From Nitrospirota bacterium (lineage in GTDB: Bacteria; Nitrospirota; Thermodesulfovibrionia; Thermodesulfovibrionales; Dissulfurispiraceae), in NCBI GenBank assembly GCA_040752355.1, contig JBFMHE010000005.1, positions 62,001 through 126,000 of the forward strand: a stretch of DNA of 64,000 bases, written 5' to 3'. Below the pieces are notes generated by a model. It saw only the letters and a list, made by a program, of their open reading frames with translations. It searched no databases and was not told where the DNA came from. The position numbers and the translations under genes were made by a program. Numbering within the stretch: position 1 is the first letter of the stretch; every line of letters begins with the position of its first letter. Shown here piece by piece: positions 31,461 to 56,761 of this stretch.

Positions 31461-31949
31461 TTAAAGTCGTGCGCCGATGCCGACGCCGAACGATATCGGC
31501 AGGGAGCGGTACCCTCTGGGCTCGATCAGATGGATCTCTCTGCCTCTCATCATCAGGTAGGGATAATCGATCTCATCGAGACGGCGCGTCTGCCTTCCGA
31601 TAACTTCTCCTGCAACGGTTATCTCTTTCCCGCGCGAATAGATCGCGGTGTCGAGGTAGCCGCCGTACAGGACAAGGAACCTGCCGTACGAGGCATCCAC
31701 GTCTTCGGGCCTGCCCCGGCTGTCGAGGGGCTTCTGCACCACTTCGATGTAGGTCCCCTCTTTCGTGTTTTTGGAGCCGACGATGACGCCCCCGAGTATG
31801 ACGACCTCGCCCTTGTACGCATCGGGGTTGCCGAGGAGCGTTGCCGGGGGGACATCCCGCGCCTTGTCCCGCAGGCTATCGGAAACGACATGCGCACAAC
31901 CGGCGAGGAACAGGACTCCCAGAACCATGATGAGCACGTGGCGCTTCAT
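31461..31949 (-). CDS. slp: Slp-family outer-membrane lipoprotein
   Basis: A 162-residue protein with a lipoprotein signal (MVLGVLFLAGC). The Slp-type body starts AHVVSDSLRDKARDVPPATLLGNPDAYKGEVVILGGVIVG and contains TYIEVVQKPLDSRGRP, as in the starvation-inducible Slp/YeaY family of outer-membrane lipoproteins. The frame is open 16 codons upstream, but the ATG at 31949 gives the signal peptide. TATAAT lies only 6 nt before it, and no ribosome site is seen. Confidence 0.85.
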   Translation of the reverse strand: MKRHVLIMVLGVLFLAGCAHVVSDSLRDKARDVPPATLLGNPDAYKGEVVILGGVIVGSKNTKEGTYIEVVQKPLDSRGRPEDVDASYGRFLVLYGGYLDTAIYSRGKEITVAGEVIGRQTRRLDEIDYPYLMMRGREIHLIEPRGYRSLPISFGVGIGARL

Positions 31950-31955
31950 GAGGTA

Positions 31956-31984
31956 ATTATAGCCGAATTCACAGTGCAAGTATA
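31956..31984 (-). promoter_or_regulatory. Promoter of slp-like gene
   Basis: Minus-strand TATAAT (31961-31956) lies 6 nt before the ATG. The hexamer 17 bp upstream (31984-31979, TATACT) is only a partial -35. Confidence 0.5.
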
Positions 31985-32067
31985 TCGCCGGTCTCATCGC
32001 TTACAATGCTGCGGAAAATCACGTATAGTAGTTTTAGGAGGGCCGGAATGAGAAAGGAGGGCATGCT

Positions 32068-33130: not shown

Positions 33131-33847
33131 ATGAAAGGTGTAAAGCGTCTGCTTGCGGTAGCGCTGATAGCGCTTATGGTAACAGCAGTTCCCTCACTGG
33201 TAGTTTACGCCAACGGCACGGCCTCATCGATGGGCGCGTCGGACAGCAGCACCAGGGGAGCAGCGACGGATGTCCCTTCCGGGTCTGACGGGGTACTGCA
33301 CGATGTCCCTGCCGAGACTATGGAAAGAGGAGCCACGGCTCCCCCCAATGAGGGACAGGTAGGCGGGATGGGATACGGCAGCGCTCCCGGGTATCCTCCG
33401 GCATCGGGACCCGGAAATGTGCCTCCCTTTATGGAGGAGAGCGGCGCGACGAGGGGAGAGGACACACAGAACGGAACGACGAGGGGCGGCGACACCTCTG
33501 GAAGCATGGGCGGAACTGCGGGTACTGCCGACTCGATGAGAGGATCCGGCATGCAGCAGGATCGGTCCATGATGCAAGACCGGTCGATGATGCAGGACCA
33601 GTCCATGCAGCGCGGCGCAGCAGCGGACGCATCCATGAGAGGAGATTTCCGGAGCTCGTACCAGCAGGGATACTCCGAGGGCTTCACCGACGGCTTCGGC
33701 AAGAGCGAGGCGCAGCACGGTTCCATGATGGGAGCCCCGAGGGGAGACATGAGAGGCGCCGGCATCGGGGACTTCACATCGCAGCATGGATGGATCCAGG
33801 GATACCAGGACGGCTATACGCAAGGTTTCAAAATGGGATTGCAGTAA
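33131..33847 (+). CDS. Secreted (S/T)xRG-motif protein 1
   Basis: A 238-residue protein with a Sec signal peptide (LLAVALIALMVTAVPSLVVYA). The mature part is low-complexity, with scattered STRG, ATRG, TTRGGD, SMRG and MQRG tetrads and an internal repeat SMMQDRSMMQDQSM. The C-terminus has YxxGYxxGF blocks (YQQGYSEGFTDGFGKSEAQHG and GYQDGYTQGFKMG). Ribosome site AAGGAGG; sigma-54 promoter upstream. I know no named family. It is a paralogue of the next gene, with which it shares 167 identical bases. It is probably a periplasmic or surface protein. Confidence 0.72.
   Translation: MKGVKRLLAVALIALMVTAVPSLVVYANGTASSMGASDSSTRGAATDVPSGSDGVLHDVPAETMERGATAPPNEGQVGGMGYGSAPGYPPASGPGNVPPFMEESGATRGEDTQNGTTRGGDTSGSMGGTAGTADSMRGSGMQQDRSMMQDRSMMQDQSMQRGAAADASMRGDFRSSYQQGYSEGFTDGFGKSEAQHGSMMGAPRGDMRGAGIGDFTSQHGWIQGYQDGYTQGFKMGLQ
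33554..33720 (+). repeat. 167-bp perfect direct repeat, copy 1
   Basis: Base-for-base identical to 34383-34549. It lies in phase in both genes and encodes the SMMQDRSM to GKSEAQHG segment. Flanking coding sequence is much less similar. Confidence 0.9.
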
Positions 33848-34019
33848 CGTGTCTGTTCAGCGCAGTAACCACTACCGAGAATAACCGCCTCGATCCCTCA
33901 ACAAGGCCTGAACACAACCAGCAGAAGCCCGCACTCACGGTGAGTGATTCTCTACTCCCCTAAGGATTCCAAACCAGCGGCTTTTACAACAAACTCTACC
34001 TGAGGAAGGAGACCCTATC

Positions 34020-34682
34020 ATGAAGAGAGCTGAGCAAGTGCTCATAGTTGCCATTACTGTGTTTGCCGTTGCGGTGCTGTCATCCCTGACGGCATATGCC
34101 GAGTGGACCGACAAGGGCTGCATCGGAGGGCCGGACAGCAGCACGAGAACGAATATATCGGCTGTATCGACGAGAGGCGGAAATGCCTCCGGTGAAACGT
34201 CGCCCGGCATTCAGCACAATGTCCCTGCTGAAACGCAGAGAGTGGAAGACGGCGCAACCCGGGGCACTGATGTCGGCGCTGCCGGGTATGGCAGCGCTCC
34301 CGGGTATCCCCCGACGGCGCAGCCGGGCAATGTTCCTCCGTTCAATGCACCGGCTGACAGTTCGATGCGGGGCTCCGGCGCACAGCAGGATCGGTCCATG
34401 ATGCAAGACCGGTCGATGATGCAGGACCAGTCCATGCAGCGCGGCGCAGCAGCGGACGCATCCATGAGAGGAGATTTCCGGAGCTCGTACCAGCAGGGAT
34501 ACTCCGAGGGCTTCACCGACGGCTTCGGCAAGAGCGAGGCGCAGCACGGGGACTTAGGGGCGGCTACACGGGGAGGCATGATGAGAGGCCACCCGATAAG
34601 CGAGGCGCAGAAGGGGTGGCTGAAAGGCTACCGGGACGGCTACCGGGAGGGCTTCAAGGCCGGGGCGCCCGGACTCCAGTAA
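34020..34682 (+). CDS. Secreted (S/T)xRG-motif protein 2
   Basis: A 220-residue paralogue of the preceding protein. It has a signal peptide (VLIVAITVFAVAVLSSLTAYA), then a region with STRGGN, ATRGTD, SMRG and ATRGGM, the shared identical block, and a C-terminal GWLKGYRDGYREGFKAG. Ribosome site GAGGAAGGAG. A small CACTCAC-GTGAGTG inverted repeat lies upstream, but no sigma-54 site, so it may be read through from gene 1 or have its own promoter. Function unknown. Confidence 0.72.
   Translation: MKRAEQVLIVAITVFAVAVLSSLTAYAEWTDKGCIGGPDSSTRTNISAVSTRGGNASGETSPGIQHNVPAETQRVEDGATRGTDVGAAGYGSAPGYPPTAQPGNVPPFNAPADSSMRGSGAQQDRSMMQDRSMMQDQSMQRGAAADASMRGDFRSSYQQGYSEGFTDGFGKSEAQHGDLGAATRGGMMRGHPISEAQKGWLKGYRDGYREGFKAGAPGLQ
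34383..34549 (+). repeat. 167-bp perfect direct repeat, copy 2
   Basis: Identical to 33554-33720, 829 bp apart, in the same reading frame. Confidence 0.9.
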
Positions 34683-34778
34683 GCCGTGATATTCACCCGC
34701 GGGGCGGCGCGAGAGACCGCCGCAAGATAGCGGATAACACGGTATGCGACAATATAACGTGGTTATCAAAACCATGAA

Positions 34779-34900
34779 GGCAGGATACAGTAATTGAGCA
34801 GCTTCATTTGATAGGGTTTGCTTATCAAAGCCCCCGCACGAGGGGAGCTCAGCGGCGTGCGCCGCTGAGATGAAGTAAAGCAAAAGTACTGTATCCTGCC
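34779..34900. other. Cloverleaf-like inverted-repeat element
   Basis: Outer arms GGCAGGATACAGTA (34779-34792) and TACTGTATCCTGCC (34887-34900) are perfectly complementary. Inside, CTTCAT (34802-34807) pairs with ATGAAG (34870-34875) around three hairpins: TTTGATA/TATCAAA (34807-34829), CCCC/GGGG (about 34832-34845) and CTCAGCGGC/GCCGCTGAG (34848-34869). It could be a structured leader or ncRNA, or a small MITE-like insertion. The rest of the 310-bp gap (34683-34992) shows no gene. Confidence 0.6.
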
Positions 34901-34992
34901 CTTTCGTATCTTGTCAGTACAGCAGGGTCTGCTCCCCGGAAGATTACGACCCCGGCTGTTCTGCAGAGCAAAGAGCTAAGGAGGTAATGTTC

Positions 34993-35700
34993 ATGAGACG
35001 AACGCACCTATTCATTATTACGATTGCAGCAGCCTTTGTGGTCGGTATGCTTCTGGTCCCTCCGGCCGCGCAACAGGCATGGGGAGGGGACTACGGCACG
35101 CCGCGCGGCACTGAAAGCGGTACCGGCAGCGCAGCGATGGACTCCTCGGGGACCTCATCAGGATCGATGCGCGGCGGCGCCGATAGCGAATCATCGGGAT
35201 CCGATACGCGAGGGAGGACCAACTTCCAGGATACCCCTACCTGGAGAGGAACCGACCCGTACGGGACGACTAACGGGACGACCGGCACCACCAGGGGAGA
35301 CGGTGTACAGGACGGCACTACGAGAGACGGCGGTACTACAGAAGGCGCTACCGGCACCGGTACCGACGCGGGAACGGACACAGGGACCACGCGGGGTGGT
35401 GACATCGGCACCGAATCGTTTGAGCGGGGCAGCATGGGGACTCCCGATTCGGGTATCGGGACGACTGACGGCGCTGCCGGGACGGGCGGAACAGGGGCGA
35501 CCGATGATACGACCGGCACTACGCGGGGCGGCGCTGACCTTGAAGGCGGCAATACCCAGCTTGACTCTCTTGACGGCACCACGCGGGGCGACGGTACGAT
35601 GAATGAAACAACAGGCGACACCGGCACGACCGGAGGCGGTACCGATAGGGGAACTGCCGGCGGTACCACGGGAGGCGACGCTGCAGGCAGCGGTATGTAG
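34993..35700 (+). CDS. Secreted Gly/Thr-rich (S/T)xRG-motif protein 3
   Basis: A 235-residue protein with a signal peptide (LFIITIAAAFVVGMLLVPPAAQQAWG). The long Gly/Thr/Asp-rich mature part repeats TTRGDG, TTRGGD, SMRGGA, TPRG and DTRG about every 15-25 residues. No Cys or folded domain is apparent, so it is probably intrinsically disordered. The ATG at 34993 has AAGGAGG at good spacing; the ATG two codons earlier is too close to it. It follows the cloverleaf-like element. Confidence 0.68.
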   Translation: MRRTHLFIITIAAAFVVGMLLVPPAAQQAWGGDYGTPRGTESGTGSAAMDSSGTSSGSMRGGADSESSGSDTRGRTNFQDTPTWRGTDPYGTTNGTTGTTRGDGVQDGTTRDGGTTEGATGTGTDAGTDTGTTRGGDIGTESFERGSMGTPDSGIGTTDGAAGTGGTGATDDTTGTTRGGADLEGGNTQLDSLDGTTRGDGTMNETTGDTGTTGGGTDRGTAGGTTGGDAAGSGM

Positions 35701-35754
35701 CGCTTCGCTAATGAGTAATTCCGTCACTATGATGAACCAATAAGGAGACCGACT

Positions 35755-36180
35755 ATGAAAAGATCAATGATCCTTCTCGGTATGCTTGCAGTTGCCGTAC
35801 TTGCGCTCTCGACGGGCTTCTCGTCTGATGCATATTCCTCGACCATGCTTGACAGGAGCACGGACCTCGCCATGGGCGGCGGGCAGCGGGGTGAGGAGCA
35901 GGAGACCACCAGGGGCACGCAGCCTCCTCCGGGTGAAGGGACTTCCGGAACAACCGGCGGAACAACCGGGCAGACAGGGACCGGTACAGGCACGGACACG
36001 GGAACGGGGACTACGAGAGGTACAGGGGATACCGAAACCGGTACGGGCACCGGCACGATGAGAGGCGGTGATACGGGGACGACCGACAGCACGACCCCGG
36101 GAACGACCGGCGGTACGACACGCGGCAGTGGTACGCAGAGCGGCACGGGAGGAAGCTCGGGCAGCTCCAGCCGTTACTAG
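35755..36180 (+). CDS. Secreted Gly/Thr-rich (S/T)xRG-motif protein 4
   Basis: A 141-residue protein with a signal peptide (MILLGMLAVAVLALSTGFSSDAYS), then TTRG, TMRGGD and TTRGSG motifs inside Gly/Thr/Ser stretches. It ends GGSSGSSSRY, so its C-terminus is aromatic. It lies 54 bp after protein 3 and probably shares its transcript. A strong terminator follows at 36245. Function unknown. Confidence 0.65.
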   Translation: MKRSMILLGMLAVAVLALSTGFSSDAYSSTMLDRSTDLAMGGGQRGEEQETTRGTQPPPGEGTSGTTGGTTGQTGTGTGTDTGTGTTRGTGDTETGTGTGTMRGGDTGTTDSTTPGTTGGTTRGSGTQSGTGGSSGSSSRY

Positions 36181-36318: not shown

Positions 36319-36579
36319 TCAGGTGTATCCCAGCTCATCGCTTTCCTGGTAGAGCGGTGAGGACGAGCTGTAGAGCTCGATTTCCGCTTCGGCAGCGCGC
36401 CGCTCATGGATGCCGCCGAGCACCGAGCCGGCTACGAGCCCCGCTGCAGCACCGATAACGCCTCCCCGCGACGGGCGCTCCGGATCGGCCAGCACTCCCA
36501 GGGCGGTCCCCACTGCGGTCGATGCCCCGATCCAGAGAAGATACCGTACGCTGATCATGTCCCCTTCTCTCCTGCTCAT
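36319..36579 (-). CDS. Small glycine-zipper membrane protein
   Basis: An 86-residue protein with two hydrophobic glycine-rich segments (YLLWIGASTAVGTALGVLA and GGVIGAAAGLVAGSVLGGI) and an acidic Ser/Tyr-rich tail. The layout is that of glycine-zipper membrane proteins. Its ATG overlaps the stop of the TPR gene (ATGA), so it is translationally coupled. A second in-frame ATG at 36558 has a better ribosome site and may be the real start. Role unknown. Confidence 0.6.
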   Translation of the reverse strand: MSRREGDMISVRYLLWIGASTAVGTALGVLADPERPSRGGVIGAAAGLVAGSVLGGIHERRAAEAEIELYSSSSPLYQESDELGYT

Positions 36580-38012
36580 GAAGCTGTCCTGCGAATCCTT
36601 TCGAGCGCGGAGAGCGCCTCGCGGTGCTCGAAGGGGTAGTACTCGGACGTAAAGACCTTCAGTGCATCGTCGTATGCGCGAGCTGCCTTGGTCAGATACT
36701 CTTCCTTATCGATGAACTTTGAAAGCCGGCGATAGAGAGTGCCGAGGCGGTACTGCAGCGAAGCATAGTCGTACGGATGGGCGAGGATGGTTTTTATCGT
36801 GAGCGCCTCGCCGTAGGCATGAAGAGCGGCGCGTACCGCCCCTTCCTCCTCCTTCACTTCGAGGATCGCTGAAAGTACGTCGCCGATGCGCTCTTGTACC
36901 GATGCATAGTCGAGGGGAGCGCTTTCAGGACGGTACACGTTCAGCGCTTCACGGTACGCGCCCGCGGCCCTGGAGAGATTTTCCTCCTTATCCCTGTGCT
37001 CGGCGAGGGCGCGGCAGGCATCGCCCCGCTTGAGCTGTGTCTCTGCACAAGCGAGCGGATGGGCCTCGACGGTAGAGACGCGCAGCGCCCTGTCATATGC
37101 CCGGATGGCGTCGACGAGCGGCTCCGGCTCGTGCCTGAGCTCGGCGAGGGTCCTGCAGCAGTCGCCGATTGCCCGTTGTGCAAACGCGTACTCCTGGGGG
37201 AAAGTCTCGGCCGTCTGGACCCTCAGCGCCTCCTCATAGGCGTCGACCGCCTTCAGGAGGTTCTCCTCCTGGCTGCGGAGCTCGGAGAGTGAACGGTAGA
37301 GAGTGCCGAGCATGCTGCAGGCCGCTCCGTAATTGAGAGGATAGGTTTCGAGGGTGTATATCCTGAGCGACTCCTCGAAAGCGCGGGTCGCCTTGCCGAG
37401 GCAGTCCTCCTTACTGCGGAAGTCTGCGAGCGCCCTGTAGGCATGGCCGAGATTCGTCAGCGCCATTGCGTAATTCACCGGGAAGGCGTCTGCTGTGTAT
37501 ACCTTGAGCGATTCGGTAAAGGCGTTGACCGACTTGGCAAGGTACTTCTCTCTCTCTTCGAATTCCGCCACCCTGAAGCAGACGTCGCCCCGGCTGTACT
37601 GGATCAGGGCATAGTCGTCGGCATCCTGCTGGAAGGGCGTATACCGGAGCGCCTCCTCGTATGCCTGGAGCGCCTTCAGCAGATGCTCGTGGGGCGACCG
37701 CGAGAGCGCCATGTGCGCGTAGCAGTTCCCTTCGCTCTTTTTGATGCGGGCGTACACCCCCGTATCCCACTCTTTCCGGAAATTGAGGAGGAGGTCGCTG
37801 TAGATCGCCAGGGCATCCCTGGGCATGTTCTCTTTGAGCAGCATATCGGCCGTGTCGAGCCGGCTCATGAGCTTGCTCCGGTAGAGTTTTTTCCTTCTGT
37901 TATCGGAAAGGTAATAGACGATGCCCAGTATGATGCTGGCGGTCAGTGCTCCGAGTACGCCGCCGATCAACCCAACGACCCATCGGCTCGGGTCGAAACC
38001 GTCGAAAGCCAT
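36576..38012 (-). CDS. Membrane-anchored TPR-repeat protein
   Basis: A 478-residue protein with one N-terminal transmembrane helix (VVGLIGGVLGALTASIILGIVYYLS), then seven or more long TPR-type repeats. Each contains A..AYEEALRVYT.E.FP.NYA......G..YR.LAE.R.KEENL. This repeat type is common in bacterial scaffold proteins and in CHAT or STAND proteins; no such effector domain is present here. The frame extends 24 codons upstream, but the ATG at 38012 has AAGGAG. A promoter is at 38085-38113. Confidence 0.75.
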   Translation of the reverse strand: MAFDGFDPSRWVVGLIGGVLGALTASIILGIVYYLSDNRRKKLYRSKLMSRLDTADMLLKENMPRDALAIYSDLLLNFRKEWDTGVYARIKKSEGNCYAHMALSRSPHEHLLKALQAYEEALRYTPFQQDADDYALIQYSRGDVCFRVAEFEEREKYLAKSVNAFTESLKVYTADAFPVNYAMALTNLGHAYRALADFRSKEDCLGKATRAFEESLRIYTLETYPLNYGAACSMLGTLYRSLSELRSQEENLLKAVDAYEEALRVQTAETFPQEYAFAQRAIGDCCRTLAELRHEPEPLVDAIRAYDRALRVSTVEAHPLACAETQLKRGDACRALAEHRDKEENLSRAAGAYREALNVYRPESAPLDYASVQERIGDVLSAILEVKEEEGAVRAALHAYGEALTIKTILAHPYDYASLQYRLGTLYRRLSKFIDKEEYLTKAARAYDDALKVFTSEYYPFEHREALSALERIRRTAS

Positions 38013-38084
38013 CGATTGCCGCTCCTTGAGAAGTCCCCCGAACACGCCGCAGTGCACGATGCTGATCCCTCCGGCGTTGTGCAT

Positions 38085-52764: not shown

Positions 52765-54189
52765 CTATCGGGCTGCCTGTTCGGCGTAGGAAGAGACCGG
52801 TTCGGACTGCAGGATGCCGGTGAGGAGCTCATCGCTGAGCGGAATCCATTCGCCGCCGGACGTCCTGAGGGCGATGGTCTTGCTGTAATCATCGCTGCCG
52901 GTGATCCTGATATCGAGAACGAGCCTGCTGTCGGGGTGGGGAAGGCGGCGGAGACGGTTATGGTCGAACAGCGGTTTGAGCCGGCTGTTGATGAAGGTGA
53001 TGATATTCCTCCCCAACTGGTTGTCGACACCCCGGCTGTACTTGGCGATATTCTTTATCGCCTCCGCTACCGGCACATTGAAGACCTCGAGAAAGGTGAG
53101 CTCCGGGTACGCTGCGAGTGAGGCCTCATGGACGGTCATGGCGCCGCTGCCTCTGAAGAGGTGCTTCACCGTAAGACCGCTGCAACGGGAAGTCGCTTCA
53201 TAGCCGTCCTCTCTCTGTTCAACCGTTATGGGATTTTCGGCGACAGCGGCGAGGGCGCGCTCGGCGATGCCGGTGACCGGAGCAGTATCCTCGACTGCGG
53301 GAATCATAACGCTCATCGCTGTGATGCCGGAGGGGGTGTCAACACCGGAGGAGGCAGGGGCATGCCGGCGATGCCCTGTATCGGCAGCGGGAGCCGCAGC
53401 TTTTGCCTGGAGCAGGAGCCGCTCTCCGGGGGCTTTCCGCTTGATATAGTAATCGGCGATAAAGACATCGCCCTCCACCGGAACCCCGTTGATGCTGATG
53501 ACGTTACGCATCGTCCACTCGGCGCCGCCCCGTGTCAGCGTATAGGCCTTGGAACCGAGCACGACCGAGGCGCCCTTGGGCACGGTGCTCCCCAGCGCGC
53601 AGCGCAGGCGCATTCCCGCCTCATCCCTGAAAAGCACTCCCTGGGCCTCTACGCTCCCCCTGCTCTCGGCCTCAATGAGATACACCTTTCCTACCCTCGA
53701 AATGCCGTATCCTCCCGAGCCGAGGGATGCGAAGACGAGCTTCTGCCCGGCGCTGCCGAAGGAGACGGTCCTGGCCGGCGGGGCAGCGCTCTGGCGCTGT
53801 TTCAGGGCAACGGGCTTTTTCCTGAGCTCTTTCTGAATGCCGTATGGCGTTGCAGTGCGGTGGCAGACGGTGCATTCTTTTGCAAAAGGCTGCGCCGCGG
53901 TGGATGAATAGGAGACAGCGGGAGGCGCCAGGAGGACGAAAAGGGCCGCTGCTGCAGCCAGCGGTTCGAGGATGCGTTTCAGTCCTTCTGCAAGAGTAAC
54001 GGGCGTTGCGGCAGCCATAACGAGCGCATGGATATGGTCGAACTCGGGATGATGCTTGTGGCTGTTGAGCCAGCGCGCAACCGCACGGCGTCCCCGGCGG
54101 AGACGGAGGAGCGATGCCACCGTCCCCGGCATCGTAAGGTCGAAGCGGGCTCCCCTGATGGTGATGCGGGCCTCGGGTGATGCGCTCAT
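52765..54189 (-). CDS. Unidentified membrane protein with one CxxCH motif
   Basis: A 474-residue protein. It has a cytoplasmic N-terminus of about 70 residues with a His-rich patch (NSHKHHPEFDHIH), a hydrophobic segment (about 74-94), and then CTVCH at 106-110, a single c-type haem site if exported. The remainder looks beta-rich, followed by a C-terminal region EVFNVPVAEAIKNIAKYSRGVDNQLGRNIITFINSRLKPLF. I do not recognise the family. It has its own strong promoter and lies downstream of the sigma-factor gene. Confidence 0.6.
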   Translation of the reverse strand: MSASPEARITIRGARFDLTMPGTVASLLRLRRGRRAVARWLNSHKHHPEFDHIHALVMAAATPVTLAEGLKRILEPLAAAAALFVLLAPPAVSYSSTAAQPFAKECTVCHRTATPYGIQKELRKKPVALKQRQSAAPPARTVSFGSAGQKLVFASLGSGGYGISRVGKVYLIEAESRGSVEAQGVLFRDEAGMRLRCALGSTVPKGASVVLGSKAYTLTRGGAEWTMRNVISINGVPVEGDVFIADYYIKRKAPGERLLLQAKAAAPAADTGHRRHAPASSGVDTPSGITAMSVMIPAVEDTAPVTGIAERALAAVAENPITVEQREDGYEATSRCSGLTVKHLFRGSGAMTVHEASLAAYPELTFLEVFNVPVAEAIKNIAKYSRGVDNQLGRNIITFINSRLKPLFDHNRLRRLPHPDSRLVLDIRITGSDDYSKTIALRTSGGEWIPLSDELLTGILQSEPVSSYAEQAAR

Positions 54190-54265: not shown

Positions 54266-55768
54266 TCAGCACAGGGACCGGTCGACCGACTGCCCGAGCT
54301 TTCGCATCGCCCTCACCTGGAGCTGCCGGATGCGCTCCCGGGAGACCGAGAGCTCCTCGCCGACCTCCTCGAGGGTTGCGGCTTCCTCACTGCCGATGCC
54401 GAAGCGCTTGCGAATAACCAGTTCCTCTTTCGGCGAGAGGGTATGGAGCATTCTCTCTATATGGCACCTCAGGCTCTCCTCCATCACTCTGTCGAGGGGG
54501 GACGGCGTCGAGCGGTCCTCGATGAAGTTTTTCAGCATCGAATCGTCATCCTCGCCGACCGTGAGCTCGATCGAAAGGGGCTCCCTGGACAGCCTCAACG
54601 CGGTCCTGACCTTTTCGAGAGGGATACGCAGCCGCACCGCAATCTCCTCAGGTCCCGGCTCGATACCGCACTCCTGAACCGTCTCCCTTACGACCTTGTT
54701 GATGCGGTTCACGGTATCCGTCATATAGACGGGTATACGGATGATGCGTCCCTGGTTCGCCAGTGCCCTGCCGATCGCCTGACGGACCCACCACGTGGCA
54801 TAGGTGCTGAATTTGTAACCCCGCCGGTAATCGAATTTGTCGACGGCATGCATGAGACCTATATTCCCTTCCTGGATAAGGTCCTCGAGGCTCAATCCCT
54901 TTCCCGCATAGTGCTTGGCAATGTTGACGACGAGACGGAGATTGGCTTCGATGAGCCGGCCCTTGGCGCTGCTCAGCTCCTGCTCGGCCGCTTCCAGCTC
55001 GGCAACAGACGCGCCGGGCTCTTCGGAGCGCAGACCCGCGGCCTCGCCGGCAGGCCGCTGCAGCTCGCGACGCCACGGGCCGCCGGACCTGCTGCCCTCG
55101 GCCCGGCGGGTGCGGCTCTGCCTTCTGCAGAGCGCCTTCGGCGCTGAGTACAGCGCCTTGAGCTCCCGGGAGAAAGACGCGATGACAGCGGGTTTAAGCG
55201 CGAGCTCCTCTACCTTCTGCAGAATGAGGCTCCTGCTCCTGCGGAGCCTTTCGGCAGAAAGCCGGTCGGCGATCTCCGCCGATCTTCCGGCCTCCCGGCA
55301 GGGATTTCGTCCATTCCTCTCATCGGCAGCAGGATCGACCATAAGGGTATACAGCGATTCCGTGATCGTCTCGAACTGGAAGGCCCGGCGCCGGAGCTCG
55401 TCGTCGGGCAGTTCCTCGGCATCGCTGACCACGTCCCGCAGGGGGACCACGCCGCTGCCGACGAGCCGGCCGAGCTCTCTCATCTGAGCGATAATGGAGG
55501 GGGTGGTGAAGAGGATGCCGCGTATGGTCCCGGCGCACTCCTCGATCGTGCGGGCGACGGCTATCTCTCCCTCCCTCGAGAGCAGGGGGGTCATGCTGAT
55601 GCCTTTCAAATAGGCGCGCAGCGGTGAATAGTCGCAGGTAATCGATACGGAGGGGTCGCGGGCTTCCGAGGATTCCTTGTCCTCGAGGGATACCGGGGAG
55701 TCCGGACCCTCCAACCCTTCAAAATCATGCAGGAAACCTTCTTCATAGGCACGGAGCGGCTCTTCCAT
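54266..55768 (-). CDS. Group 1/2 sigma-70-family RNA polymerase sigma factor
   Basis: A 500-residue factor. Region 1.2 ([29 protein letters not shown]) is followed by a non-conserved insert (about 95-250), then region 2 ([62 protein letters not shown] pattern), region 3, and region 4 with [32 protein letters not shown] and the helix-turn-helix [19 protein letters not shown]. Region 1.1 is missing or diverged. It is probably an RpoS-like alternative factor rather than the housekeeping one. The leader carries a GEMM-like element and a terminator. Confidence 0.85.
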
Positions 55769-56209: not shown

Positions 56210-56761
56210 CTACCAGGCAGGCTGAATGCCGTAGAAGCGGTAGACCTCGGCGATCCACTGCCTGTCGGCAGCTTTTGCCCACTGGTCTTTCGTAAAGCTG
56301 GGGGCGCTCTTCAACCTGTCCTTGGTCAGATTGACGATCAGCACGTCCGGCGCGGTGCCGCTCGTGGTGAGCGCCTGCGTGGGGATAGCGTAGAGCCGGT
56401 CGCCTTCTTCCGCCTGCATGACCACGTAGGCTGCGCGTCCCTGGCTGGGGTCGATGACGATATCGGTGATCTTGCCGAGCTTTTCTCCCTGCATGTTCTG
56501 GACGTTTTTATCCATGAGCTGGCTCGCCCTGCTCGTCTGCTGAAGCTGACGGGTCTGCATCCCCGCGCCTCTGGTCGAGTCGTCTCCCCGCATCGACGGG
56601 CTCTCCGCTCCTCTCGTTGCGCCGCTGTCCGGAGCGACCGCTCCATTGATCCTTTCGGAAGGGAGCGCCGAGGGGTCCGCAGTGCTGCCGTCGGCAAACA
56701 CGTATGGTGCGATCATCAGAGCGAGCGCTAACGACAGCGCCGGAATAATCGTTCTTTTCAT
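56210..56761 (-). CDS. Secreted PRC-barrel protein with (S/T)xRG linker
   Basis: A 183-residue protein with a signal peptide (IIPALSLALALMIAPYVFA). A disordered linker holds ATRGAE, SMRGDD and STRGAG, and then a PRC-barrel domain (LMDKNVQNMQGEKLGKITDIVIDPSQGRAAYVVMQAEEGDRLYAIP). It ends WIAEVYRFYGIQPAW. The linker is the same motif type as in the four secreted proteins at 33-36 kb, linking a recognised domain to that unknown family. Ribosome site AAGGAGG. Confidence 0.78.
   Translation of the reverse strand: MKRTIIPALSLALALMIAPYVFADGSTADPSALPSERINGAVAPDSGATRGAESPSMRGDDSTRGAGMQTRQLQQTSRASQLMDKNVQNMQGEKLGKITDIVIDPSQGRAAYVVMQAEEGDRLYAIPTQALTTSGTAPDVLIVNLTKDRLKSAPSFTKDQWAKAADRQWIAEVYRFYGIQPAW

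Follow-up and report, generated by a model that had tools for sequence, protein, structure and literature searches.

Repeated arginine–glycine dipeptides within disordered, glycine-rich chains are found in the RG/RGG-box regions of eukaryotic proteins, which take part in multivalent interactions and are defined by tight clustering, with neighbouring sites lying within ~4 residues of each other. Hydrophilins and LEA-like proteins are also glycine-rich, hydrophilic and disordered, the criteria for hydrophilins being >6% glycine and a hydrophilicity index >1 on the published scale. In the PEP-CTERM/exosortase system, one short motif is carried by many non-homologous exported proteins, at the C-terminus and together with a membrane helix and a basic tail. 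The anionic domain of LbpB, a secreted bacterial low-complexity region, has been reported to form droplets with cationic peptides (PMC11022072).

The locus described here has something in common with each of these systems. It lies in a stretch of 64,000 nucleotides (the window, G000:C5:62001–126000) from the genome of an uncultured Nitrospirota bacterium (the home genome) and comprises four adjacent forward-strand genes between positions 33131 and 36180. As an earlier note on this DNA had proposed, all four encode proteins with signal-peptide-like starts (called with a simple rule and visual inspection), and each is preceded by a good ribosome-binding site. Gene A (33131–33847) encodes an exported disordered protein of 238 amino acids with nine RG sites, including STRG, ATRG, TTRG and two copies of SMRG, and with C-terminal helical repeats of the form GYxxGYxxG; the GYxxG(F/Y)xDG repeat region (33659–33844, forward strand) gives a weak Yae1_N-like signal. 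Gene B (34020–34682, 220 amino acids) encodes a paralogue of A, 65% identical in protein alignment, with STRG, ATRG, two copies of SMRG and further RG sites. The two genes have in common a 220-nt block (33533–33752 in A, 34362–34581 in B) with 91% DNA identity that appears to be a recent duplication or gene conversion. Genes C (34987–35700, 237 amino acids) and D (35755–36180, 141 amino acids) encode exported G/S/T-rich proteins. In the mature part of the former, 10 of the 12 arginines are followed by glycine and there are no lysines at all, whilst the latter has a conserved LAMG head and the series TTRG, TTRG, TMRG and TTRG, LAMG...TRG being invariant among D orthologues. Scans of the region for sigma-70 promoters and terminators found nothing above chance. 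Between genes B and C (34779–34901) lies a 14-bp inverted repeat (GGCAGGATACAGTA...TACTGTATCCTGCC); the ~95 bp that it encloses contain a GC-rich hairpin. The element resembles the remnant of a small mobile element and is single-copy in the genome.

No family in Pfam or NCBIfam describes the products of this cassette, nor do any of the four match the PRC domain (PF05239). Membership of the Yae1 and FliH families was considered for A and B and set aside, as scores fall under the curated cut-offs: 22.1 bits for A and 19.3 for B against 27.5 for Yae1_N (PF09811), in the GYxxG repeats only, and 16 for B and 11.5 for A against a cut-off of at least 200 bits for FliH (NCBIfam). A search of the literature on TTRG/ATRG/STRG, on exported bacterial proteins with RG motifs and on the function of PRC barrels likewise produced no such family, in keeping with the earlier view that none has been described. 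The AlphaFold model of B is largely disordered (mean pLDDT 46.7, with 167 of 220 residues below 50) and, at this low confidence, places helices only in the signal, QQDRSMM and GYxxG regions.

Set against the systems outlined above, the cassette proteins resemble each in part. Like RG/RGG-box regions they are disordered, glycine-rich chains with repeated Arg–Gly, but they are exported bacterial proteins in which no RNA-binding domain is seen, the residues before the arginine are specified as [TSA][TM] and the sites are mostly 8–40 residues apart. The full range of spacings is 4–56 residues, nearly all above 4, which places A–D outside the RG/RGG-box definition and is also wider than the interval of 10–25 residues claimed in the earlier note. 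With 15–34% glycine in the mature parts examined, the proteins satisfy the glycine criterion for hydrophilins; unlike hydrophilins and LEA-like proteins, they are exported and have a conserved motif in common with folded PRC-barrel proteins. As in the PEP-CTERM/exosortase system, one short motif is found on many non-homologous exported proteins, but here it is internal or N-terminal and reiterated, and A–D end in KMGLQ, GAPGLQ, AAGSGM and SSSRY, respectively, with no hydrophobic segment and thus none of the PEP-CTERM arrangement of membrane helix and basic tail. Unlike that system, too, there is to our knowledge no cognate enzyme for a TRG-type motif. The likeness to LbpB lies in the low-complexity region of a secreted bacterial protein; A–D differ in having only a mild net charge and a specific motif.

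The amino acid composition of these proteins does not explain the motif. The earlier note had named an equal frequency in shuffled sequences as the outcome that would refute it, and this is not what is seen. In the pooled mature parts of A–D, [ST].RG occurs 19 times against a mean of 2.7 in shuffled sequences, a count reached in 0 of 5000 shuffles; individually, A, B, C and D have 4, 3, 8 and 4 copies, with shuffled means of ~0.4, 0.4, 1.0 and 0.8. The stricter form [STA][TM]RG is also present 19 times in A–D, against 0.8 expected from composition, ten cassette proteins from three related genomes contain 35 motifs against 5.0 expected, and other home-genome ORFs have a background of 0.52 [ST].RG per 1000 residues. 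The recurrence of (S/T)xRG noted earlier is therefore real, but the true motif is more specific. In a profile of 91 RG sites (18 proteins, five genomes), glycine is preferred at position −3, threonine, serine or alanine at −2 (Thr/Ser in 61, Ala in 15) and threonine or methionine at −1 (46 and 13, respectively), with acidic residues enriched ~2- to 3-fold at −5, −4 and +2 to +4. The R and G columns of this profile are invariant by construction, since the sites were picked for their RG; independently of that choice, glycine follows 91 of 155 arginines, compared with 23% by composition. The refined motif, copies in relatives included, is G-[TSA]-[TM]-R-G with acidic residues nearby. An RGD-type adhesion motif was considered and dropped, as aspartate follows RG at only 14 of the 91 sites.

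How widely is the cassette distributed? A- and D-type proteins were searched for in 60 relatives, in the family (31 genomes), in the order (176 genomes) and in a sample of the phylum (395 genomes), and were found only in the home genome (G000) and in G006, G015 and G019. No A-type gene was found elsewhere among the 176 genomes of the order. Orthologues of A and C-like proteins are present in G006, G019 and G015, although a homology search with protein C alone matched only itself. A fifth cassette genome, G002, was found via synteny and encodes two exported proteins with TTRG, STRG and SMRG, located between a conserved TPR gene and a glycosyltransferase gene. The cassette is also next to these two genes in the home genome and G015, a site thus conserved in two of the genera. 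The earlier note had raised the question of distribution across related genomes: the cassette is carried by five genomes, which represent three genera in a single GTDB family of the Nitrospirota. Records under the names Nitrospira sp. Ru_enrich_NS and Nitrospirales bacterium SJ299 carry it. The TPR gene itself is present in 12 of the 31 family genomes, mostly in ones without the cassette, and in six family genomes with the TPR gene and no detected cassette there is no motif protein within 102 kb around it.

Some further features of the relatives were observed in passing. The cassette proteins of some relatives have a lysine-rich block (e.g. EKKKKKKKHKKRK; L116:2248–2769, L014:9197–9727, L013:233–805) that is found in none of the home proteins. 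In G019, a near-identical segment, GAVTGAPGG...GEIVPG, is common to the C-type (L013:890–1603) and A-type (L013:1772–2431) proteins, indicating that cassette genes have exchanged segments. A scan of contigs with the A-type alignment returned two cassette genomes and, in a Blastocatellia MAG (L030:9761–10036), a weak and distant match that is 32% identical to the C-terminal GYxxG repeats.

The motif is not restricted to the cassette. The earlier note had placed it in the linker of a PRC-barrel protein encoded at 56210–56761 on the reverse strand (PRC1), and this is borne out: the linker contains GATRG, SMRG and STRG and the barrel matches PF05239. Searches of the home genome detected three exported PRC-barrel proteins, the others being PRC2 (C5:127385–127939) and PRC3 (C20:46164–46649, on another contig), and all three carry the motif. 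Their PF05239 scores (40.8, 47.6 and 21.6 bits for PRC1, PRC2 and PRC3, respectively) are above the cut-off of 21.2. In each case, the motif sits between the signal peptide and the barrel, with one to three copies per linker in PRC proteins of cassette genomes. A home-genome PRC protein without a signal (on contig C12) has no motif. The motif is also present in exported PRC proteins from G006, G002 and G015, so that, among those whose linker can be read, 6/6 exported PRC proteins of cassette genomes, three of them from the home genome, are motif carriers; a second PRC gene in G015 is cut within the linker by the contig end and shows no motif in the visible part. Exported PRC-barrel proteins of other Nitrospirota share the order of signal peptide and PF05239 barrel, with recognisable barrel homology, but have short linkers. 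Among PRC homologues of other families, 0 of the 21 that are readable have RG in the first 100 residues (by eye, ~13 of the 21 have a signal-like start), and alignment shows the motif stretch to be an insertion confined to cassette genomes. In the PRC2 model the linker is disordered (pLDDT 45–48) and the barrel confident (mostly 92–95), the linker confidence being too low to judge contact with its own barrel. The coupling between PRC linkers and the cassette is the strongest result of the analysis. As only five related and phylogenetically close genomes are involved, however, the association may reflect just one or two evolutionary events.

A motif scan of the home genome (3.57 Mb in 44 contigs) covered stretches totalling 1.10 Mb, or 31%, a non-random sample in that it includes the contigs with the already known PRC genes. 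Eight ORFs in these stretches have two or more copies of [STA][TM]RG: A–D, PRC1–3 and one evidently spurious frame. Over this part of the genome, then, the only credible multi-motif ORFs are the four cassette genes and those of the three exported PRC proteins.

Several observations point to selection on the motif at the level of the protein. In pairwise alignments, the spacers diverge and the RG sites are retained, the arginine of RG being kept in 74 of 116 comparisons and other arginines in 40 of 101 (Fisher p = 0.0004, with pairs taken in both directions and the comparisons hence non-independent). The 24 copies of [STA][TMSIP]RG in A–D and PRC1 are encoded by 23 different 12-mers, and four arginine codons (AGA, CGG, AGG and CGC) are used. 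Since 23 of 24 copies differ in DNA, the constraint acts on the protein; a DNA-level cause such as an uptake sequence or microsatellite was dropped on this ground and because tandem arrays, of which the region has few, leave the motif copies unexplained. The same observations bear on whether recombination or gene conversion among linked genes might have spread the motif with no selection for function. The 220-nt block in A and B and the segment common to the C- and A-type proteins of G019 are what such a process would produce, yet the DNA sequence differs in nearly every motif copy, PRC3 lies on another contig, and the PRC genes of G006 and G002 are on contigs other than that of the cassette. 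We consider this explanation very unlikely. The counts and alignments instead support a motif that is shared, and apparently selected, across non-homologous exported proteins. The proteins had been described earlier as otherwise dissimilar, which is true of the A/B pair, C, D and the PRC protein relative to one another, but not of the paralogues A and B.

The genes around the cassette offer some hints of function. A Slp-family outer-membrane lipoprotein gene (31461–31997, reverse strand) adjoins the cassette on one side. On the other lie two reverse-strand genes without the motif, one for a small glycine-zipper-like protein (36319–36579; a weak match, found in the same order beside the G015 cassette) and one for the TPR protein (36576–38084), which has an N-terminal membrane helix. 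YHS and DUF3618 genes are also nearby, the former in G006 as well as in the home genome. Genes of the YHS, DUF3618 and Slp types are associated with envelope or stress functions, and their presence is suggestive of an envelope or stress role. A second Slp-family gene (L016:2072–2659) adjoins PRC2, on the same contig as the cassette. Elsewhere in the window, GC content falls to 0.44–0.48 between 46000 and 50000, compared with ~0.60 in the rest, a possible acquired island, and a 474-amino acid ORF without a Pfam match (52765–54189) adjoins a sigma-70 factor gene (54266–55768).

These neighbours are among the features expected if A–D were exported hydrophilin- or LEA-like protectants against osmotic or drying stress, whose function depends on their low-complexity G/S/T composition, the motif being either incidental or left over from the expansion of repeats. 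The glycine content, the hydrophilicity of the proteins examined (Kyte–Doolittle GRAVY −0.63 to −1.47) and the internal repeats of some members fit such a role. The motif would then have to be a by-product, which is difficult to reconcile with its excess over composition, with the retention of RG sites between diverging spacers and with its occurrence, in different codons, in the PRC linkers. As a full explanation it seems rather unlikely, but a protectant may carry a selected motif as well.

What, then, might the motif do? Non-homologous exported proteins keep its sequence whilst spacing and number are free, which suggests recognition as a short linear motif. The many copies, the free spacers and the insertion of the motif beside folded barrels lead us to favour, tentatively and at somewhat less than an even chance, a role as a multivalent docking tag joining the disordered and PRC-barrel proteins in the envelope. 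A–D would act as flexible disordered strings carrying many G-[TSA]-[TM]-R-G binding sites, and the exported PRC-barrel proteins bear the same motif in the flexible stretch that joins their signal peptide to the barrel. Strings and PRC-barrel proteins alike would attach to one putative partner, which might be a surface polymer, some other envelope protein or the PRC barrels, and so assemble into a network, either periplasmic or on the cell surface. That the motif binds, that binding is multivalent, where the network is located and any part in envelope stress are what we infer. The PRC2 model offers nothing in favour of a linker docking on the barrel of its own protein.

The preference for particular residues N-terminal to Arg-then-Gly fits a protease or a modifying enzyme equally well. 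The leading rival to docking, itself unlikely in our estimation, is that the motif is a site for an exported Arg-specific protease, with G-[TSA]-[TM]-R as P4–P1 and the following G as P1′; the cassette proteins would be cut to peptides and the PRC-barrel proteins trimmed free of their linkers. As in protease specificity, the strongest preferences lie directly before the arginine and at the next glycine, all sites are in disordered stretches, and the PRC linkers have redundant sites ahead of the barrel. Set against this, the two obvious clan CD Arg-specific families are absent from the cassette genomes, and a scan of genes next to the cassette turned up no protease gene other than LexA. C11 (clostripain) is present in 0 of the 31 family genomes and C25 (gingipain) only in G008, leading us to drop these two families as readers of the motif, an exclusion that covers C11 and C25 only. 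The G008 match (G008:C19:8305–9330) is a gingipain-type C25 peptidase domain in a 1313-residue frame; no cassette was found in that genome.

Modification of the motif, by O-glycosylation of Thr/Ser or a change to the arginine, for example, would tag or cross-link the proteins. The frequent Thr/Ser at −2 and Thr at −1 and the conserved core of Arg and Gly are in its favour, but with alanine and methionine admitted at these positions there is no invariant hydroxyl residue, and no modifying enzyme was found directly beside the cassette. We regard modification as improbable and, like incidental composition and recombination, less likely than docking or cleavage. The shared site suggested in the earlier note thus stands as a motif selected at the protein level across genera, and it may serve for processing, modification or binding.

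Returning to docking, the motif is a candidate tag, a docking (or cutting) motif of the cell envelope that is specific to this lineage and undescribed so far, and it ties disordered proteins that lack a family assignment to PRC-barrel proteins exported by the same cells. In known cases, short motifs on unrelated exported proteins have pointed the way to an enzyme or receptor that recognises them, and here a peptide of five to seven residues provides a direct handle for fishing out the partner. A more specific proposal, and one we think unlikely to hold in full, is that of a lineage-specific envelope assembly in which a dedicated receptor, possibly the PRC barrel, reads the TRG-type motif to build an extracytoplasmic network or condensate. 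Such a system would add a bacterial, extracytoplasmic case to the motif-driven assembly of disordered proteins.
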